Shown: positions 33,292 through 39,347 of the stretch, piece after piece | How positions within the stretch are numbered: position 1 is the stretch's first letter | Layout of the letters: each line of letters starts with the position of its first letter | Assembly: GCF_900110025.1 (NCBI RefSeq) | Contig: NZ_FOCE01000003.1 | Coordinates: 186,001 to 250,000, forward strand | Origin: Gemmobacter aquatilis | GTDB lineage: Bacteria > Pseudomonadota > Alphaproteobacteria > Rhodobacterales > Rhodobacteraceae | Direction: 5' to 3' | DNA length: 64,000 bases | Notes under the pieces: generated by a model | What the model saw: the letters and a program-made list of their open reading frames with translations, nothing else | Database searches by the model: none | Told to the model about the DNA's origin: nothing | Position numbers and translations under genes: made by a program

Positions 33292-33418
33292 CGCCCCCTC
33301 ACCCTGCCCTCTCCCCCGAGGGGAGAGGGTATGTGGCGCGGGATGACCGATGTTTGCGCGCCGATCCCGCGCGGGGCAAGCCCTCTCCCCCCGGGGGAGA
33401 GGGTTGGGTGAGGGGGGC
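33292..33418. repeat. Large REP-like palindrome, copy 3
   Basis: Same architecture as 3791-3915: two CCCTCTCCCC-type hairpins about 50 bp apart with outer arms CCCCTCACCC and GGGTGAGGGG. It begins 13 bp after the rluB stop, where it may act as a transcription barrier or mRNA stabiliser. Confidence 0.85.
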
Positions 33419-33539: not shown

Positions 33540-33623
33540 ATGACCGGCTCTCGCCTTCAGACGCTCAGTTTCGTGCTGTTGCTGGCACTGATCCTTTATG
33601 TTGCCCTGCAAGGGGGCGCGTGA
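33540..33623 (+). CDS. 27-aa membrane micropeptide coupled to the XpaC gene
   Basis: A short gene with ATG, GGAGG five bases upstream and 27 codons. The peptide MTGSRLQTLSFVLLLALILY continues as VALQGGA, a single transmembrane helix with a basic N-terminal side. Its stop overlaps the ATG of the XpaC-family gene (TGATG), so ribosomes finishing it would restart there. It may be a real membrane subunit of the cluster or only a leader that sets translation of the next gene. The strong ribosome-binding site and the clean helix favour a made peptide. Confidence 0.6.
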   Translation: MTGSRLQTLSFVLLLALILYVALQGGA

Positions 33624-34525
33624 TGGCGCAGCGCTTTGGTGGCAAATACTCTCCCGACGGCTCGGTGCAGCAGGATCATGGCCCCGCACCTGCGCCGGGT
33701 GGCCCGCCCAACCTGTTCGATGGCAAGCGCCCGGCCAAGGCGGGGGCGCGGTCGAACCTGCTGTTTCTGGTGCCACTGGTGTTTGGCGTGCAGGCTTTCC
33801 GGCAGGAACCTGCGGGCATGACCTTGGGGCTGGCTGCGCTGGGGCTGATGCTGGGCGCCGCCTGGCTGACGCGCGAAGGGATCCGCGCGCAAGAGGCCTA
33901 TGATCTGCGCCGGGTGGCGAAACGCCCGGCCTTTCCGCGCAAGATCGCCGGGTCGCTGCTGATGGGGATCGGGCTGTTCGCAGGTGGGCTGATGAGCACC
34001 GGCAACCCGCTGACCTCGGCCCTGTTCGGGCTGCTGGGGCTGGGGCTGCATCTGGCCAGTTTCGGCCCCGACCCGCTGACCGACAAGGGCGCCGAAGGCA
34101 TCGACACCTTCCAGACCGAGCGCGTCGCCCGCGCGGTGGACGAGGGCGAGGCCTATCTGGCCGCGATGAAGGATGCGATCCTGCGCGCCCGTGACCGCGC
34201 GCTTGACGCGCGGGTGGAACGTTTCGCGGTGGCGGCGCGGCAATTGTTCCGATCGGTCGAGGCCGATCCGCGCGATCTGACGGCGGCCCGCAAGTATCTG
34301 GGCGTCTATCTGATGGGCGCCCGTGATGCGACTGTCAAATTTGCCGACTATTACGCCCAAAGCCGCGACGCCAAGGCGCGGGCCGAGTATGAAAGCCTGC
34401 TGTCGGACCTTGAAACCACCTTTGCCGGGCGCACCCAGGCGCTGCTGGTGCAGGATTCCGGCGATCTGGATGTTGAAATTCAGGTGCTGCGCGAGCGGCT
34501 GCACTATGAAACGCCCAAAGCCTAG
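33623..34525 (+). CDS. XpaC-family (5-bromo-4-chloroindolyl phosphate hydrolysis) membrane protein
   Basis: A 300-aa protein. The first 45 residues are polar and Pro/Gly-rich (GGKYSPDGSVQQDHGPAPAP). Four hydrophobic helices follow in two pairs (about 46-85 and 110-155). The C-terminal 140 residues are a charged helical domain (ERVARAVDEGEAYLAAMKDAILRARD, then RKYLGVYLMGARDATVKFADYY) characteristic of XpaC. In Bacillus, xpaC is paired with a telA homologue, and the same pairing is seen here. The biochemical role is unknown. The historical name comes from a hydrolysis phenotype, and no catalytic motif is visible. Confidence 0.78.
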   Translation: MAQRFGGKYSPDGSVQQDHGPAPAPGGPPNLFDGKRPAKAGARSNLLFLVPLVFGVQAFRQEPAGMTLGLAALGLMLGAAWLTREGIRAQEAYDLRRVAKRPAFPRKIAGSLLMGIGLFAGGLMSTGNPLTSALFGLLGLGLHLASFGPDPLTDKGAEGIDTFQTERVARAVDEGEAYLAAMKDAILRARDRALDARVERFAVAARQLFRSVEADPRDLTAARKYLGVYLMGARDATVKFADYYAQSRDAKARAEYESLLSDLETTFAGRTQALLVQDSGDLDVEIQVLRERLHYETPKA

Positions 34526-34554
34526 GCAGAGGCACCCGCGACCTGCCAAGCCGA

Positions 34555-34583
34555 TTGAGAATGCCCCTGCCCCGGCCTATAGA
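34555..34583 (+). promoter_or_regulatory. Promoter of telA
   Basis: TTGAGA (34555-34560) and TATAGA (34578-34583) are separated by exactly 17 nt, the best sigma-70-type match seen in the window. It would give a leader of about 68 nt before telA. telA can therefore be transcribed without the XpaC gene. Confidence 0.55.
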
Positions 34584-34658
34584 GGAAACCTGCTGCACCT
34601 GCACAGCTTTTCCGGGTTCGGGGCGCATCTTGTGACACGTCCAGAGTGAGGCCAGACC

Positions 34659-35843
34659 ATGACTGACACCGTTCGCAGCCAAGCCGTAGCCGCCCTTGCG
34701 GAAGCCGAAAAGATCACCGCAACCATCCTGCCCGAAGCCAATGCGGCGCAGGTCACGCTGGCCGCCGCCCCCGCGCCACAGGCCGAGGCGATCCGCAAGC
34801 GCATGGCCGAGCTGGACATGGGCAATACCCAGTCGATCATCTCGTTCGGGTCTGCGGCGCAGCAGGAATTGCAGGTGATCAGCCAGCAGATGCTGGAAGA
34901 TGTAAAGAACAAGGATGTCGGCCCGGCAGGTGACGGGCTGCGCAACATGGTGGCGACGATCCGGGGCTTTTCGGTGTCGGAACTGGATGTGCGGCGCGAG
35001 CGGAGCTGGTGGGAAAAGCTGCTGGGCCGTGCCGCGCCCTTCGCCAAATTCGTGTCGAAATACGAAGAGGTGCAGGGCCAGATCGACCGCATCACCGAAA
35101 CCCTGCTGCAGCATGAACACAAGCTGTTGAAGGATATCAAAAGCCTCGACATGCTGTATTCCAAGACGCTGGATTTCTATGACCAGCTGGCGCTGTATAT
35201 CGCAGCGGGCGAGGCAAAGCTGGCGGAACTGGATGCCATCGACATTCCGGCGCGCGAGGCCGCCGTTGCCGCCGCCCCGGAAAACGATCAGGTGATCCGC
35301 GCGCAGGAGTTGCGCGACCTGCGCGCCGCACGCGACGATCTGGAACGCCGGGTGCATGACCTGAAACTGACGCGGCAGGTGACCATGCAGTCGCTGCCCT
35401 CGATCCGGCTGGTGCAGGAAAACGACAAGTCGCTGGTGACCAAGATCAACTCGACGCTGGTGAACACCGTGCCGCTGTGGGAAACCCAGCTGGCGCAGGC
35501 CGTCACCATCCAGCGGTCGCGCGAGGCGGCGCAATCCATCAAGGCCGCCAATGACCTGACGAATGAATTGCTGACCGCGAACGCGAAGAACCTGCAGGAA
35601 ACCAACCGCGTCGTGCGCACGGAAATGGAGCGCGGCGTGTTCGACATCGAAGCAGTGAAACAGGCCAATGCGACGCTGATCGCCACGATCAACGAAAGCC
35701 TTGCCATCGCCGATGCCGGCAAGGCGAAGCGCGCCGCCGCCGAGGCGGATCTGACCAAGATGGAGGCCGAGCTGCGCGATACGCTGGCCTCGGCCAAAGC
35801 CCGCCGCGACGGCGTGGGCACCACAACCGGCACCGCCGTCTGA
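34659..35843 (+). CDS. telA: TelA family protein (toxic anion resistance)
   Basis: A 394-aa soluble, almost wholly helical protein of the TelA/YaaN/KlaA family, which is linked to tellurite and other envelope or anion stress but has no established biochemistry. Landmarks are IISFGSAAQQELQVISQQML near residue 62, the WWEKLLGRAAPFAKF segment near 125, the coiled-coil stretch QGQIDRITETLLQHEHKLLKDI, and the highly conserved end region NSTLVNTVPLWETQLAQAV with ETNRVVRTEMERGVFDIEAVKQAN. No membrane segment is present. DUF2927 follows after 11 bp. The length and coiled-coil make-up resemble PspA/ESCRT-III-like proteins in general form only. Confidence 0.88.
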   Translation: MTDTVRSQAVAALAEAEKITATILPEANAAQVTLAAAPAPQAEAIRKRMAELDMGNTQSIISFGSAAQQELQVISQQMLEDVKNKDVGPAGDGLRNMVATIRGFSVSELDVRRERSWWEKLLGRAAPFAKFVSKYEEVQGQIDRITETLLQHEHKLLKDIKSLDMLYSKTLDFYDQLALYIAAGEAKLAELDAIDIPAREAAVAAAPENDQVIRAQELRDLRAARDDLERRVHDLKLTRQVTMQSLPSIRLVQENDKSLVTKINSTLVNTVPLWETQLAQAVTIQRSREAAQSIKAANDLTNELLTANAKNLQETNRVVRTEMERGVFDIEAVKQANATLIATINESLAIADAGKAKRAAAEADLTKMEAELRDTLASAKARRDGVGTTTGTAV

Positions 35844-35854
35844 CGGAGGACAGC

Positions 35855-36820
35855 GTGACACCTGACAAGCGCCAGACCCCGGCCCGCATCGCTGCCACAG
35901 CGGCGCTTGTCACTGCCCTGCTGGGCGGCTGTGCTGCGCCGCAGCTTGCGGTCTCGCCGCGCCCGGTGCCGCGCCCGGCGGCGGCGCAACCCGCCCCGGC
36001 GCCGGTGCAGCCCTCGGCCGAAAGTCAGGCGCTGGCCGCCTATTATGCGCGGGTGCAGGCCGATCTGCTGGATCAGGGCCTGCTGCGTTCGGACGGGGGC
36101 GGGACAGATACGCCGTTCACCGACACGATGCTGACGGAAAACTTCATCCGCGTGGCGCTGTTCGACGAATACCGTCGCACCGGCGGTGGTCTGGTGGCGC
36201 AGGAAACCCAAAGCCGCCTGCGCCGCTGGGAGGCGCCTGTGCGCGTGTCGCTGAACTTCGGTGCCTCGGTTTCCGCCGACCGGCGCGCCACGGATCGCGC
36301 GCGCATCAGCTCCTACCTTACGCGGCTCAGCCAGATCACCGGCCACCCGATCATGCTGGATGACCGCAACCCCAACTTCTTCGTGCAGGTGGTGAACGAG
36401 GATGAACGCCGCGCGCTTGGCCCGGTGATCCGCGCCACCCTGCCCGAACTGAGTTCGGCCGAAGTGGCCGGTCTGACCGACCTGCCGCGATCGACCTATT
36501 GCATCGTCTATGCGCTGTCGGAAGGCAGCGCCTCGACCTATGCCCGGGCCTTTGCGGTGATCCGCGCCGAACATCCCGACCTGCTGCGCCTGTCCTGCAT
36601 GCACGAAGAAATTGCCCAGGGGCTTGGCCTTGCCAATGACAGCCCGCTGGCCCGCCCCTCGATCTTCAACGATGATGAAGAATTCGCGCTGCTGACGCGG
36701 CAGGACGAAATGATGCTGCGTATTCTTTACGACCCGGCGCTGCACCCCGGCATGACCGCCACCGAAGCCCGCCCCGTGGTGCGCCAGATCGCCGCACGGA
36801 TGCTGGGCGGTGCAAGCTGA
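35855..36820 (+). CDS. DUF2927 lipoprotein
   Basis: A 321-aa protein starting at GTG with CGGAGGA upstream. The signal ends in a lipobox (LVTALLGGC with Cys near 26), so it should be a lipid-anchored periplasmic protein. A Pro/Ala-rich linker (residues 30-60) leads into the DUF2927 domain: RWEAPVRVSLNFGASVSADRRA, DRNPNFFVQVVNEDERRALGP and the terminal LRLSCMHEEIAQGLGLANDSP. HEEIAQGLGL resembles the metal-site helix of zinc proteases (HExxxxxxG), so peptidase ancestry is possible. It is coupled to telA by short spacing. Confidence 0.8.
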   Translation: MTPDKRQTPARIAATAALVTALLGGCAAPQLAVSPRPVPRPAAAQPAPAPVQPSAESQALAAYYARVQADLLDQGLLRSDGGGTDTPFTDTMLTENFIRVALFDEYRRTGGGLVAQETQSRLRRWEAPVRVSLNFGASVSADRRATDRARISSYLTRLSQITGHPIMLDDRNPNFFVQVVNEDERRALGPVIRATLPELSSAEVAGLTDLPRSTYCIVYALSEGSASTYARAFAVIRAEHPDLLRLSCMHEEIAQGLGLANDSPLARPSIFNDDEEFALLTRQDEMMLRILYDPALHPGMTATEARPVVRQIAARMLGGAS

Positions 36821-36825
36821 TCCCT

Positions 36826-36846
36826 TTCATCCTGGCAAAAATACTC
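36826..36846. repeat. Dispersed 21-nt element, single copy
   Basis: TTCATCCTGG-CAAAAATACTC starts 5 bp after the DUF2927 stop. It is the copy closest to consensus. Confidence 0.8.
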
Positions 36847-37029
36847 CCCGCGGAGCGTCCGCACGCCCCATCCCGCACCACGCCGGAGGGGGGAAAAAAC
36901 GCCAAGCTGACGCAGCCCCGCGCGAAGGGGCTTCAAACCCCGCGCGGCTCGGCTATGGTATCGGCAAACGGGGCAACCCCCGCCCGCGCCCAGAGGGGCG
37001 CCGGTTTCGCAAGGTGAAAGGTCCACGCC

Positions 37030-38139
37030 ATGGTGTTCGATTTCCTGAAGGGCGAATTCATTGATGTCATCTCCTGGCTGGATGACACGCGCGACACGAT
37101 GGTCTGGCGGTTTGAACGGCGCGGGCAGGCGATCAAATATGGCGCCAAGCTGACGGTGCGCGAAGGTCAGGCGGCGGTGTTCGTGCATGAGGGGCAATTG
37201 GCCGATGTGTTCGGCCCCGGGCTTTACATGCTTGAAACCAACAACATGCCGATCCTGACCACGCTGCAGCACTGGGATCACGGCTTCAACTCGCCCTTCA
37301 AGTCCGAGATCTATTTCGTATCGACCACCCGCTTCAACGATCTGAAATGGGGCACCAAGAACCCGATCATCTGCCGTGACCCCGAATTCGGCCCGGTGCG
37401 GCTGCGCGCCTTCGGGTCGTATTCGATGCGCGTCTCTGATCCCGGCGTGTTCCTGAAGGAAATCGTCGGCACGGATGGCGAGTTCACCGCCGACGAGATC
37501 AGTTTCCAGATCCGCAATGTGATCGTGCAGGAAATGAGCCGGGTGCTGGCCTCGTCCGGCATTCCGGTGCTGGACATGGCGGCGAATACCGCCGATCTGG
37601 CCAAGCTGATCGCCACCGCCATCGCGCCGAAGATCACCGAATACGGGCTGAGCCTGCCGGAATTCTACATTGAAAACATCAGCCTGCCGGAAGAGGTGGA
37701 AAAGGTGCTCGACAAGCGCACCTCGGTCGGCATCGCGGGCGATCTGCACAAATACATGCAATTCAACACGGCCGAGGCGATGAGCGCACCGGGCGGCGCC
37801 ATGGGCGGGGCGATGGGCGCCGGCATGGGCGCAGCCATGGGGCTTGGCATGGCGCAGCAGATGCAACCCGGCCCCTGGGGCGCCGCGCCTGCCGCAGCAG
37901 CCCCTGCCGCGCCCCCGCCCCCACCGCCTGCGGCACCGTCCTGGCATCTGGCGGAAAACGGCGCCACCAAGGGGCCTTTCTCTGAATCCGATCTGCAAGC
38001 CATGGCCGCCAGCGGTGCGCTGAGCCGCGCCAGTCTGGTGTGGACTGCCGGGCAGGACGGCTGGAAGCCTGCCGGCGACACCGCGCTGGCGCGGCTGTTC
38101 GCCATGGTCCCGCCGCCCCCGCCGCCGCCCGGAGCCTGA
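37030..38139 (+). CDS. SPFH-domain protein with C-terminal GYF_2 domain (YdjI-like)
   Basis: A 369-aa protein of the group often labelled virion core protein, related to Bacillus YdjI. An SPFH (band-7) domain covers about residues 25-240 (LPEFYIENISLPEEVEKVLDKR). A Gly/Ala/Met-rich hinge (255-285) and a poly-Pro linker come next, then a GYF_2 domain at about 304-350 (WHLAENGATKGPFSESDL, later LVWTAGQDGWKPA), which typically binds proline-rich peptides. A Pro-rich end follows. There is no transmembrane helix, so it would reach the membrane as an oligomer or through a partner. The zinc-ribbon gene begins two bases after its stop. Confidence 0.85.
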   Translation: MVFDFLKGEFIDVISWLDDTRDTMVWRFERRGQAIKYGAKLTVREGQAAVFVHEGQLADVFGPGLYMLETNNMPILTTLQHWDHGFNSPFKSEIYFVSTTRFNDLKWGTKNPIICRDPEFGPVRLRAFGSYSMRVSDPGVFLKEIVGTDGEFTADEISFQIRNVIVQEMSRVLASSGIPVLDMAANTADLAKLIATAIAPKITEYGLSLPEFYIENISLPEEVEKVLDKRTSVGIAGDLHKYMQFNTAEAMSAPGGAMGGAMGAGMGAAMGLGMAQQMQPGPWGAAPAAAAPAAPPPPPPAAPSWHLAENGATKGPFSESDLQAMAASGALSRASLVWTAGQDGWKPAGDTALARLFAMVPPPPPPPGA

Positions 38140-38141
38140 TC

Positions 38142-39239
38142 TTGACCGAGACCCAACGGCATTTCCCCTGCGAGGCGTGCGGGGCCGACCTGCGCTTCAC
38201 GCCGGGGGAGACATCGCTGCGCTGCGATCATTGCGGCCATGTGCAGCAGATCCCCGCCGCCCCGGCGGGCAAGACCCTGACCATGGGCGAACTGGATCTG
38301 CACAAGGCGCTGCGCCATGCCCTGCCCCCCGGCGCGATGGAGGAGGTGCGCACCACGCCCTGCCCCTCTTGCGGGGCGCTGGTGGAGTTTCAGGGCGCGG
38401 AACATGCGAAGGAATGCCCGTTCTGCGCCACCCCGGTGGTGATCGGCACCGGCACCAATCGGCAGATCAAGCCACAGGCGCTGATCCCTTTCGCGCTGGA
38501 TGAACGCACGGCGCGGGCGGCGATGACCGACTGGCTGGGCGGGCTGTGGTTCGCGCCGAACGGCTTGGTGGAATATGCCCGCAAGGGCCGGGCGATGAGC
38601 GGGATCTATGTCCCCTACTGGACCTTCGACGCCGCCACCCGCAGCCAGTATACCGGCCAGCGCGGCGAGCATTATTATGAAACCCGCACGGTGATCGTGG
38701 ATGGCAAGCGCCAGCAGCAGCAAGAGCTGAAGGTGCGCTGGTATCCGGCGCGCGGCTGGGTGAAGCGGCTGTTCGACGATGTGCTGGTGCTGGCCAGCCA
38801 GTCCTTGCCGCGCCGCTATACCGATGCACTGGCGCCGTGGGATCTGGGCCAGCTTACCCCTTACCGCGCCGATTTCCTCGCCGGGTTCACCGCCGAGGGC
38901 TATACGATCGGGCTGGAGGAAGGCTGGGCGCGGGCGCAGGAGGTGATGGCGCAGGTGATCGATCAGGACGTGCGCCGCGACATTGGCGGCGATGAACAGC
39001 GCGTCACCAGCATCGACACCGAATATTCGGCAGAAACCTTCAAGCACGTTCTGCTGCCGGTCTGGATGGCGGCCTATAAATACAACGCGAAGACCTATCG
39101 CTTCGTGGTGAATGGCCAGACCGGCAAGGTGCAGGGCGAACGGCCCTACAGTGCCTGGAAGATCGCCTTTGCGGTGCTGCTTGCGGCGCTGGTGGCGGGG
39201 GGGCTGGCCTATCTGAAGCAAAGCGGCAAGCTGGGCTAA
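38142..39239 (+). CDS. Double zinc-ribbon membrane protein (YdjG-like)
   Basis: A 365-aa protein starting at TTG two bases after the SPFH stop, with GGAG upstream in the SPFH end. Two zinc ribbons are seen: Cys10/13 with Cys28/31, and Cys74/77 with Cys92/95. The middle is a beta-rich domain with [17 protein letters not shown] and [25 protein letters not shown] single transmembrane helix ends the protein ([19 protein letters not shown]). Such proteins are often mislabelled as helicase PriA-like because of the ribbons, and no helicase motif is present. Bacillus YdjG, which anchors a PspA homologue, has a similar make-up. Confidence 0.8.
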
Positions 39240-39274: not shown

Positions 39275-39347
39275 CCCCCGGGGTATTTTTACAAAGAAGA
39301 AGACAGGGCCGTTGCGGCTTCTTCTTTGTCAAAATACCCTCGGGGGG
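39275..39347. terminator. Long inverted repeat (variant of the 21-nt element) ending the TelA cluster
   Basis: The left arm CCCCCGGGGT-ATTTTTACAA-AGAAGAAG pairs with the right arm CTTCTTCTTT-GTCAAAATAC-CCTCGGGG over about 28 bp with few mismatches and a 15-nt loop. The inner 12 bp are perfect. It lies 35 bp after the zinc-ribbon gene and before purC, so it could terminate transcription or block it in both directions. There is no simple T-tract. Confidence 0.65.

Follow-up and report, generated by a model that had tools for sequence, protein, structure and literature searches.

Positions 33,540–39,239 of the window, the 64,000-nt stretch of Gemmobacter aquatilis DNA that was analysed, contain six consecutive open reading frames on the plus strand, as confirmed by reading the sequence. 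A gene for a single-span membrane micropeptide (27 aa, 33,540–33,623) overlaps by 1 bp the start of a gene for an XpaC-type membrane protein (300 aa, 33,623–34,525; Pfam PF10112, E = 2.6e-23). These are followed by telA (394 aa, 34,659–35,843; PF05816, E = 1.5e-104), a GTG-initiated gene for a DUF2927 protein that is probably a lipoprotein (321 aa, 35,855–36,820; PF11150, E = 4.3e-64), a gene for an SPFH protein with a GYF_2 domain (369 aa, 37,030–38,139; PF13421, E = 1.5e-101; PF14237, E = 6.1e-18), and a TTG-initiated gene for a YdjG-like double zinc-ribbon protein with a C-terminal membrane anchor (ZR; 365 aa, 38,142–39,239). ZR was recognised from its sequence and hydropathy, and matched no Pfam family above the cut-off. 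The frames and the Pfam matches agree with the kinds and the placement of the six genes given in the first-pass annotation. An NCBIfam search of the cluster proteins gave nothing near the cut-offs. Against PHROGs, TelA matched a tellurite-resistance family (5.2e-46), and the other cluster proteins gave only weak matches (0.0011 or worse).

The tight spacing described earlier was confirmed at the micropeptide–XpaC overlap, between telA and the DUF2927 gene (11 bp) and between the SPFH and ZR genes (2 bp), but the readings given to the two wider gaps did not stand. The XpaC–telA gap, taken to hold a promoter, measures 133 bp here, a length peculiar to the G. aquatilis genome; none of 77 relatives has more than 88 bp between the two genes (median, 28 bp), so that a conserved telA promoter at this place is unsupported. 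The 209-bp gap before the SPFH gene (36,821–37,029) had been described as a repeat, but none of 22 inverted repeats of at least 18 nt overlaps that interval, and none of the 20 direct-repeat families listed, out of 35, touches it.

A membrane peptide of 20–60 aa ends at this place before XpaC in 76 of 77 relatives, which confirms the 27-aa membrane peptide. Similar peptides occur before TelA in 0/77 loci, before DUF2927 in 0/80 (with estimated starts), before SPFH in 0/78 and before ZR in 1/22. The synonymous fraction for the micropeptide was 0.66/0.77, compared with 0.27/0.28 expected, a pattern indicating that it is under purifying selection. With it, the module gains a tangible new component.

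The XpaC-type protein has a single 19-residue stretch above the hydropathy limit. The predicted model of TelA is a bundle of long helices (including residues 127–205 and 208–294); it is of modest confidence (mean pLDDT, 68.5), and PspA is not among the 50 fold matches listed. By hydropathy, the SPFH protein is free of membrane stretches. It carries polyproline runs before the GYF domain and at the C-terminus, and two polyproline runs within it are invariant in 13 of 13 aligned rows. Its profile matched in the PDB only the GYF domain of AgmX (7z3c, 2.8e-6), on which a literature search found nothing, and PDB sequence searches with the TelA, ZR, DUF2927 and XpaC profiles gave nothing firm. ZR carries two cysteine quartets (10, 13, 28 and 31; 74, 77, 92 and 95) and one hydrophobic stretch, at the C-terminus. 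Binding of the GYF_2 domain to proline-rich stretches of the neighbouring proteins had been suggested. The XpaC N-terminal prolines are not conserved in 13 aligned rows, Pro11 excepted, and contact with the DUF2927 linker is topologically unlikely, because DUF2927 looks like a lipoprotein and the SPFH protein is without a membrane stretch.

DUF2927 carries a lipobox-like sequence, LLGGC, ending at Cys26, and is probably a lipoprotein. Its predicted fold is that of the metzincins (MMP catalytic domains, karilysin), and in the model the sequence EExxQxxGxxN occupies residues 251–261. E251, E252, Q255 and G258 were present in 64/64 aligned rows and N261 in 63/64. The glutamate and the glycine of the metzincin motif HExxHxxGxxH are thus kept, whereas the zinc motif HExxHxxGxxH/D itself is absent, the three histidines that bind zinc in metzincins being replaced by E, Q and N.

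The TelA–SPFH gene association is no local accident. Among 80 loci of close relatives, fetched by TelA match, TelA, DUF2927 and SPFH stand in this order on one strand in 78, and the DUF2927 gene stands after telA in most of the Rhodobacteraceae loci examined. TelA is carried by 35 of 37 Rhodobacteraceae genomes, a distribution unlike that of defence islands, which are usually patchy. At the locus the PF10112 gene lies directly upstream of the PF05816 gene, and this pair is adjacent in 34/35 family genomes; TelA and SPFH lie within 10 kb of each other in 31 of the 35 that have TelA. In a sample of 207 Alphaproteobacteria of families other than Rhodobacteraceae, all six carriers of the SPFH family PF13421 also have TelA, which is found in only 13 of the 207 overall (hypergeometric probability, 1.7e-8, with genomes treated as independent). 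Four of these six carry XpaC–TelA–SPFH–ZR on one strand without DUF2927, so that the core consists of four genes. The core gene order is common to five alphaproteobacterial families, and the association of SPFH/ZR with telA/xpaC, on which the first-pass annotation had let its proposal stand or fall, is conserved in Rhodobacteraceae and in four other families of the class. The arrangement is not invariable. SPFH–ZR is inverted in genomes G005 and G006 and, judging by contig ends, in G008. TelA and SPFH do not lie together in G028 and G014, and they are unlinked in G450 of the phylum sample and in G048 and G184, which belong to the six carriers from other families. The distance between ZR and SPFH exceeds 300 bp in 27 of 71 loci, so that transcription as one unit does not hold generally. 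TelA was found beside SPFH in none of 19 PF13421 carriers outside Alphaproteobacteria. In genome G432, also outside the class, the protein encoded after XpaC–TelA contains GYF_2 and shows a faint resemblance to SPFH. We recognised no paper on a joined TelA–SPFH cluster in the literature searched, which included few subscription papers.

The gene context supports well the view that the cluster is a YdjI/YdjG-like platform joined to XpaC–TelA. In the part of the Bacillus study available (PMC8581546), YdjI, together with YdjG and YdjH, is needed for bringing PspA to the membrane. The B. subtilis pspA-ydjGHI operon resembles the cluster in combining, as a membrane platform, an SPFH protein without a membrane stretch and a membrane-anchored double zinc ribbon, and PF13421 (Band_7_1) also matches in B. 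subtilis. The operon differs in having PspA and the TPM protein YdjH, whereas here XpaC–TelA adjoin the platform and no TPM-domain protein is found among the six genes; the SPFH protein ends in GYF_2 here, in contrast to the zinc finger described for YdjI. The proposed likeness to ydjGHI holds through an Enterococcus homologue of ZR (profile match 9e-36 over 316 columns) lying between SPFH and TPM genes. In the Enterococcus gallinarum plasmid pK205-4a-A (L226), homologous SPFH and ZR genes occur in the same order, but a TPM gene stands third, the SPFH protein has a zinc ribbon at its C-terminus, and no TelA or XpaC match was found within the 17 kb read. The Enterococcus ZR, used as a query on plasmids, returned the same 12 records, none from Bacillus. 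The other half of the cluster resembles xpaC-yaaN (xpaC-telA) of Bacillus, Listeria and Lactococcus, in which XpaC is directly followed by TelA. Here, unlike in those bacteria, the pair is joined to SPFH–ZR; the micropeptide precedes XpaC, and DUF2927 follows TelA in most of the Rhodobacteraceae seen.

PspA is lacking from the locus, as had been noted, and no PspA/IM30 protein (PF04012) was found in any of 11 genomes of the genus, that of G. aquatilis included. These data do not establish that TelA does the work of PspA. PF04012 occurs in 6 of 37 family genomes and coexists with the module in five of the 37. The five module profiles gave no matches at five family PspA loci; ten proteins from three of these five were scanned, one of them being PspA beside a TetR regulator and none SPFH.

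TelA and XpaC appear in several envelope-stress regulons. In partial texts, the CesSR response (PMC3139573) and exposure to garvicin KS (PMC12791056) both raise xpaC and telA, and xpaC rises in a liaR mutant (PMC10269926). The module unites two gene sets that are linked to membrane stress elsewhere among bacteria, and its role is inferred. We consider it rather probable that the four-gene core XpaC–TelA–SPFH/GYF–ZR, with the micropeptide in front, is a conserved module serving the inner membrane under stress. The soluble SPFH protein would multimerise, perhaps via the GYF domain together with the polyproline runs that the protein itself carries, and would dock on tail-anchored ZR, as YdjI needs YdjG/YdjH in Bacillus. 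TelA, with its long helices, would be gathered at the membrane on this platform with XpaC and the micropeptide, forming a layer beneath the membrane that protects or mends it; sub-membrane structures are proposed for TelA in the accessible part of PMC7824862. DUF2927, on the periplasmic side, may be a binding or sensing part rather than a protease of the usual kind. More tentatively, the module may be an alphaproteobacterial, PspA-independent membrane repair or protection complex, in which TelA takes the place of PspA on the SPFH–ZR platform, XpaC and the 27–29-aa micropeptide are integral, and, in Rhodobacteraceae, the zinc-less metzincin lipoprotein is the periplasmic sensor. In Bacillus the counterpart of SPFH/ZR recruits PspA to the membrane, and the fixed genetic partnership of TelA with this pair lets the role of TelA be tested directly.

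A less likely explanation is that XpaC–TelA and SPFH–ZR are independent stress units answering the same envelope signal, neighbours for shared regulation and not in contact. Bacillus xpaC-yaaN and pspA-ydjGHI are listed as separate sigma-W operons in the portion seen of PMC3498285, SPFH–ZR pairs without TelA occur on Vibrio, Comamonas and Tsukamurella plasmids (about 17 kb read), several Alphaproteobacteria have TelA with an XpaC match nearby and no SPFH, and the inversions and splits between the halves point the same way; however, the shared core order in five families, and outside the class with a degenerate SPFH, argues against this. It is improbable that lowering metalloid toxicity is the main task of TelA and its partners in a tellurite or oxyanion resistance locus. 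The TelA family name suggests it, and so do the citation of R. sphaeroides telA as a chromosomal tellurite determinant (PMC6955997, in part) and a cited 2-fold higher tellurite susceptibility of a Listeria telA mutant, but in the same partial source that mutant is 4-fold more susceptible to nisin (PMC12791056), and the regulon data indicate membrane-active agents (PMC3498285, PMC3139573 and PMC10269926, each in part); none of the Ter partners TerC, TerD and TerB is among the six genes. Least probable of all is that TelA and the SPFH platform hinder phage or foreign DNA from entering the cell, an idea put forward in the text available for Ter systems of jumbo phages, TelA included (PMC7824862), because TelA is near-uniformly present in the family and PADLOC gave a single match (E = 0.045) for five proteins.

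A distant relative of DUF2927 (L318) retains the full zinc motif, as HELAHGFGFAH. DUF2927, formerly of unknown function, becomes a predicted metzincin-fold family; the zinc histidines are missing from most members seen, and the full motif persists in at least one.

The new feature of this locus is that an XpaC-TelA half and an SPFH-zinc-ribbon half are joined in one module. Six plus-strand genes (33540–39239) encode a micropeptide, an XpaC protein (PF10112), TelA (PF05816), a DUF2927 protein (PF11150), an SPFH protein with a GYF_2 domain (PF13421/PF14237) and a zinc-ribbon protein. Sequence reading and Pfam searches recovered every frame of the row reported in the first-pass annotation, with the same families and spacings. 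Upstream of telA the window has a gap of 133 bp, whereas across 77 relatives this gap never exceeded 88 bp. A repeat had also been placed upstream of the SPFH gene, but none of at least 18 nt was found there among the inverted repeats or the 20 of 35 direct-repeat families listed. Inverted repeats lie on both sides of the cluster, at 33294–33416 and 39275–39345, with arms of 47 nt and 28 nt.

To the same annotation, the SPFH and zinc-ribbon genes were partners of telA and xpaC, and this association proved to be conserved. We searched 61 genomes, 37 of them Rhodobacteraceae, and tallied presence and linkage by eye from the tables. TelA, XpaC-type PF10112, SPFH PF13421 and the zinc-ribbon protein were each present in 35 of the 37 family genomes, SPFH additionally as a contig-end fragment in G032. 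All four were missing from G024; G032 (85% complete) lacked TelA and XpaC, and G031 lacked the zinc ribbon alone, its contig stopping within SPFH. XpaC adjoined TelA in 34 of 35 TelA-bearing genomes (exception, G033), and TelA and SPFH lay less than 10 kb apart in 31 of 35. The two genes were separated by about 37 kb in G028, and were located on two large contigs in G014 and on separate draft contigs in G004 and G008, the latter consistent with an inverted neighbour. SPFH and the zinc ribbon were in the opposite orientation in G005, G006 and, judged from contig ends, G008. A TelA-alignment scan of named genomes confirmed 584 relatives, of which the best 80 were kept; these are 74–86% identical to the window's TelA and thus not independent, their titles indicate either Rhodobacteraceae genera or alphaproteobacterial MAGs without further placement, and one or more of them (L143) also belong to the first genome set. 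TelA, DUF2927 and SPFH followed in the same order on one strand in 78 of these best 80; the exceptions were L143 (Gemmobacter caeruleus; SPFH-zinc-ribbon inverted) and L217 (Tritonibacter mobilis; no SPFH match within 9 kb downstream). A match to the zinc-ribbon gene was obtained at 72 of the 80 loci; six of the eight misses stop at a contig end, L207 and L217 being the other two. In G023, the zinc-ribbon gene is broken across two frames (L092, 8127–9166).

We drew an even sample of 210 Alphaproteobacteria, 207 of which do not belong to the family. At an E limit of 1e-10, 6 of these 207 had SPFH and 13 had TelA, and all six SPFH carriers had TelA (p = 1.7e-8, hypergeometric, genomes treated as independent). 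XpaC-TelA-SPFH-zinc-ribbon rows on one strand occurred in G093, G100, G153 and G167, which represent four different families; SPFH and TelA were both present but unlinked in G048 and G184. A sample of 299 Pseudomonadota listed 15 family members; 14 of them carried both genes, separated in every case by less than 3 kb on the listed coordinates. Both were again present but unlinked in G450, from another alphaproteobacterial family. Outside the class, this sample yielded SPFH in 19 genomes and TelA in 9; three carried both, always on different contigs. On one strand, G432, which lies outside the class, carries genes for XpaC, TelA and, after them, a 283-aa protein in which GYF_2 matched at 8.8e-10 and Band_7_1 weakly (0.0027, below cut-off).

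The SPFH-zinc-ribbon pair is more widely distributed than its linkage to TelA. Outside the class, we read 14 loci with SPFH: seven had a near full-length zinc-ribbon match next to SPFH, five had partial zinc-ribbon matches only, and two had none; at one of the latter (L295) the contig ends, and at the other (L303) the protein next to SPFH carries DUF4178. The SPFH protein of L300, also outside Alphaproteobacteria, terminates in SHOCT. Plasmids of Vibrio, Comamonas and Tsukamurella carry the pair without TelA in the roughly 17 kb read, and an Enterococcus gallinarum plasmid encodes SPFH, a zinc-ribbon homologue (profile match, 9e-36) and then a TPM domain, equivalent to the ydjGHI content minus PspA. 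YdjG is described as combining two zinc ribbons with a membrane segment and a domain related to YpeB (PMC11237479); the window's zinc-ribbon protein is likened to it by this description, the profile match being to the Enterococcus homologue. A second zinc-ribbon copy, about 30% identical, was seen in four family genomes (G012:C21, G021:C20, G025:C3 and G030:C26; L111, L120–L122).

In Bacillus, PspA is reported to require YdjI for membrane localisation, and both require YdjG and YdjH (PMC8581546). PspA (PF04012) was missing from all 11 genus genomes, the window's included, as had been noted for this locus, and was detected in six of the family's 37 genomes; its absence is the usual state in the family. 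TelA could, as suggested, fill the role of PspA, but the module is not simply a PspA substitute: five of the six PspA-bearing family genomes (G011, G012, G013, G030 and G035) also carry it.

DUF2927 is an optional part of the module, because the core rows of G093, G100, G153, G167 and the family member G433 do without it. The row of G025 also lacks DUF2927, and in G014 its copies lie about 12 kb away. Residues 251–262 (36605–36640) fall in a predicted metzincin fold in which the zinc histidines are replaced by E, Q and N; HExxHxxGxxH is intact in a relative in G037 (L318). The family may mix active and inactive metzincins. The window's genome contains another DUF2927 gene (G000:C25:87618–88211, L119), and it too has EExxQxxGxxN spacing.

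Published reports tie XpaC/TelA to envelope stress: they are placed under sigma-W (PMC3498285) and in the CesSR response (PMC3139573), and are linked to garvicin KS and, as cited in the same paper, nisin (PMC12791056); the liaR mutant link concerns xpaC alone (PMC10269926). TelA has been proposed to build sub-membrane structures (PMC7824862). The mechanism by which the module would act in membrane stress is our inference. The best listed folds for the TelA model were ClyA-type alpha pore-forming proteins, with Z of a size common for helical bundles.

The row begins with a conserved membrane micropeptide of 27–29 aa (33540–33623, plus strand; same place in L143–L222), whose frame often shares 1 bp with the start of XpaC. 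Of 77 loci, 76 had a 20–60-aa frame with a membrane stretch terminating where XpaC begins, and 68 still did under strict limits (ATG, 24–32 aa, gap −12 to 10). The loose test gave 0/77 before TelA, 0/80 before DUF2927 (starts estimated), 0/78 before SPFH and 1/22 before the zinc ribbon. Among single-change codons, 66% were synonymous in the 27-aa micropeptides (n = 40, window's included; 27% expected) and 77% in those of 29 aa (n = 23; 28% expected), the compared pairs sharing ancestry. A similar small frame precedes XpaC in G093, G167 and G432 and is lacking in G153; in G100 the sequence stops too close to judge. Where TelA has no adjoining SPFH (G040, G184, G205, G078 and G072), XpaC matches were preceded by a small frame, a doubtful one, only in G072. 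Directly upstream of XpaC, a divergent second XpaC-like frame is present in L137, L099, L103, L164, L200 and L216.
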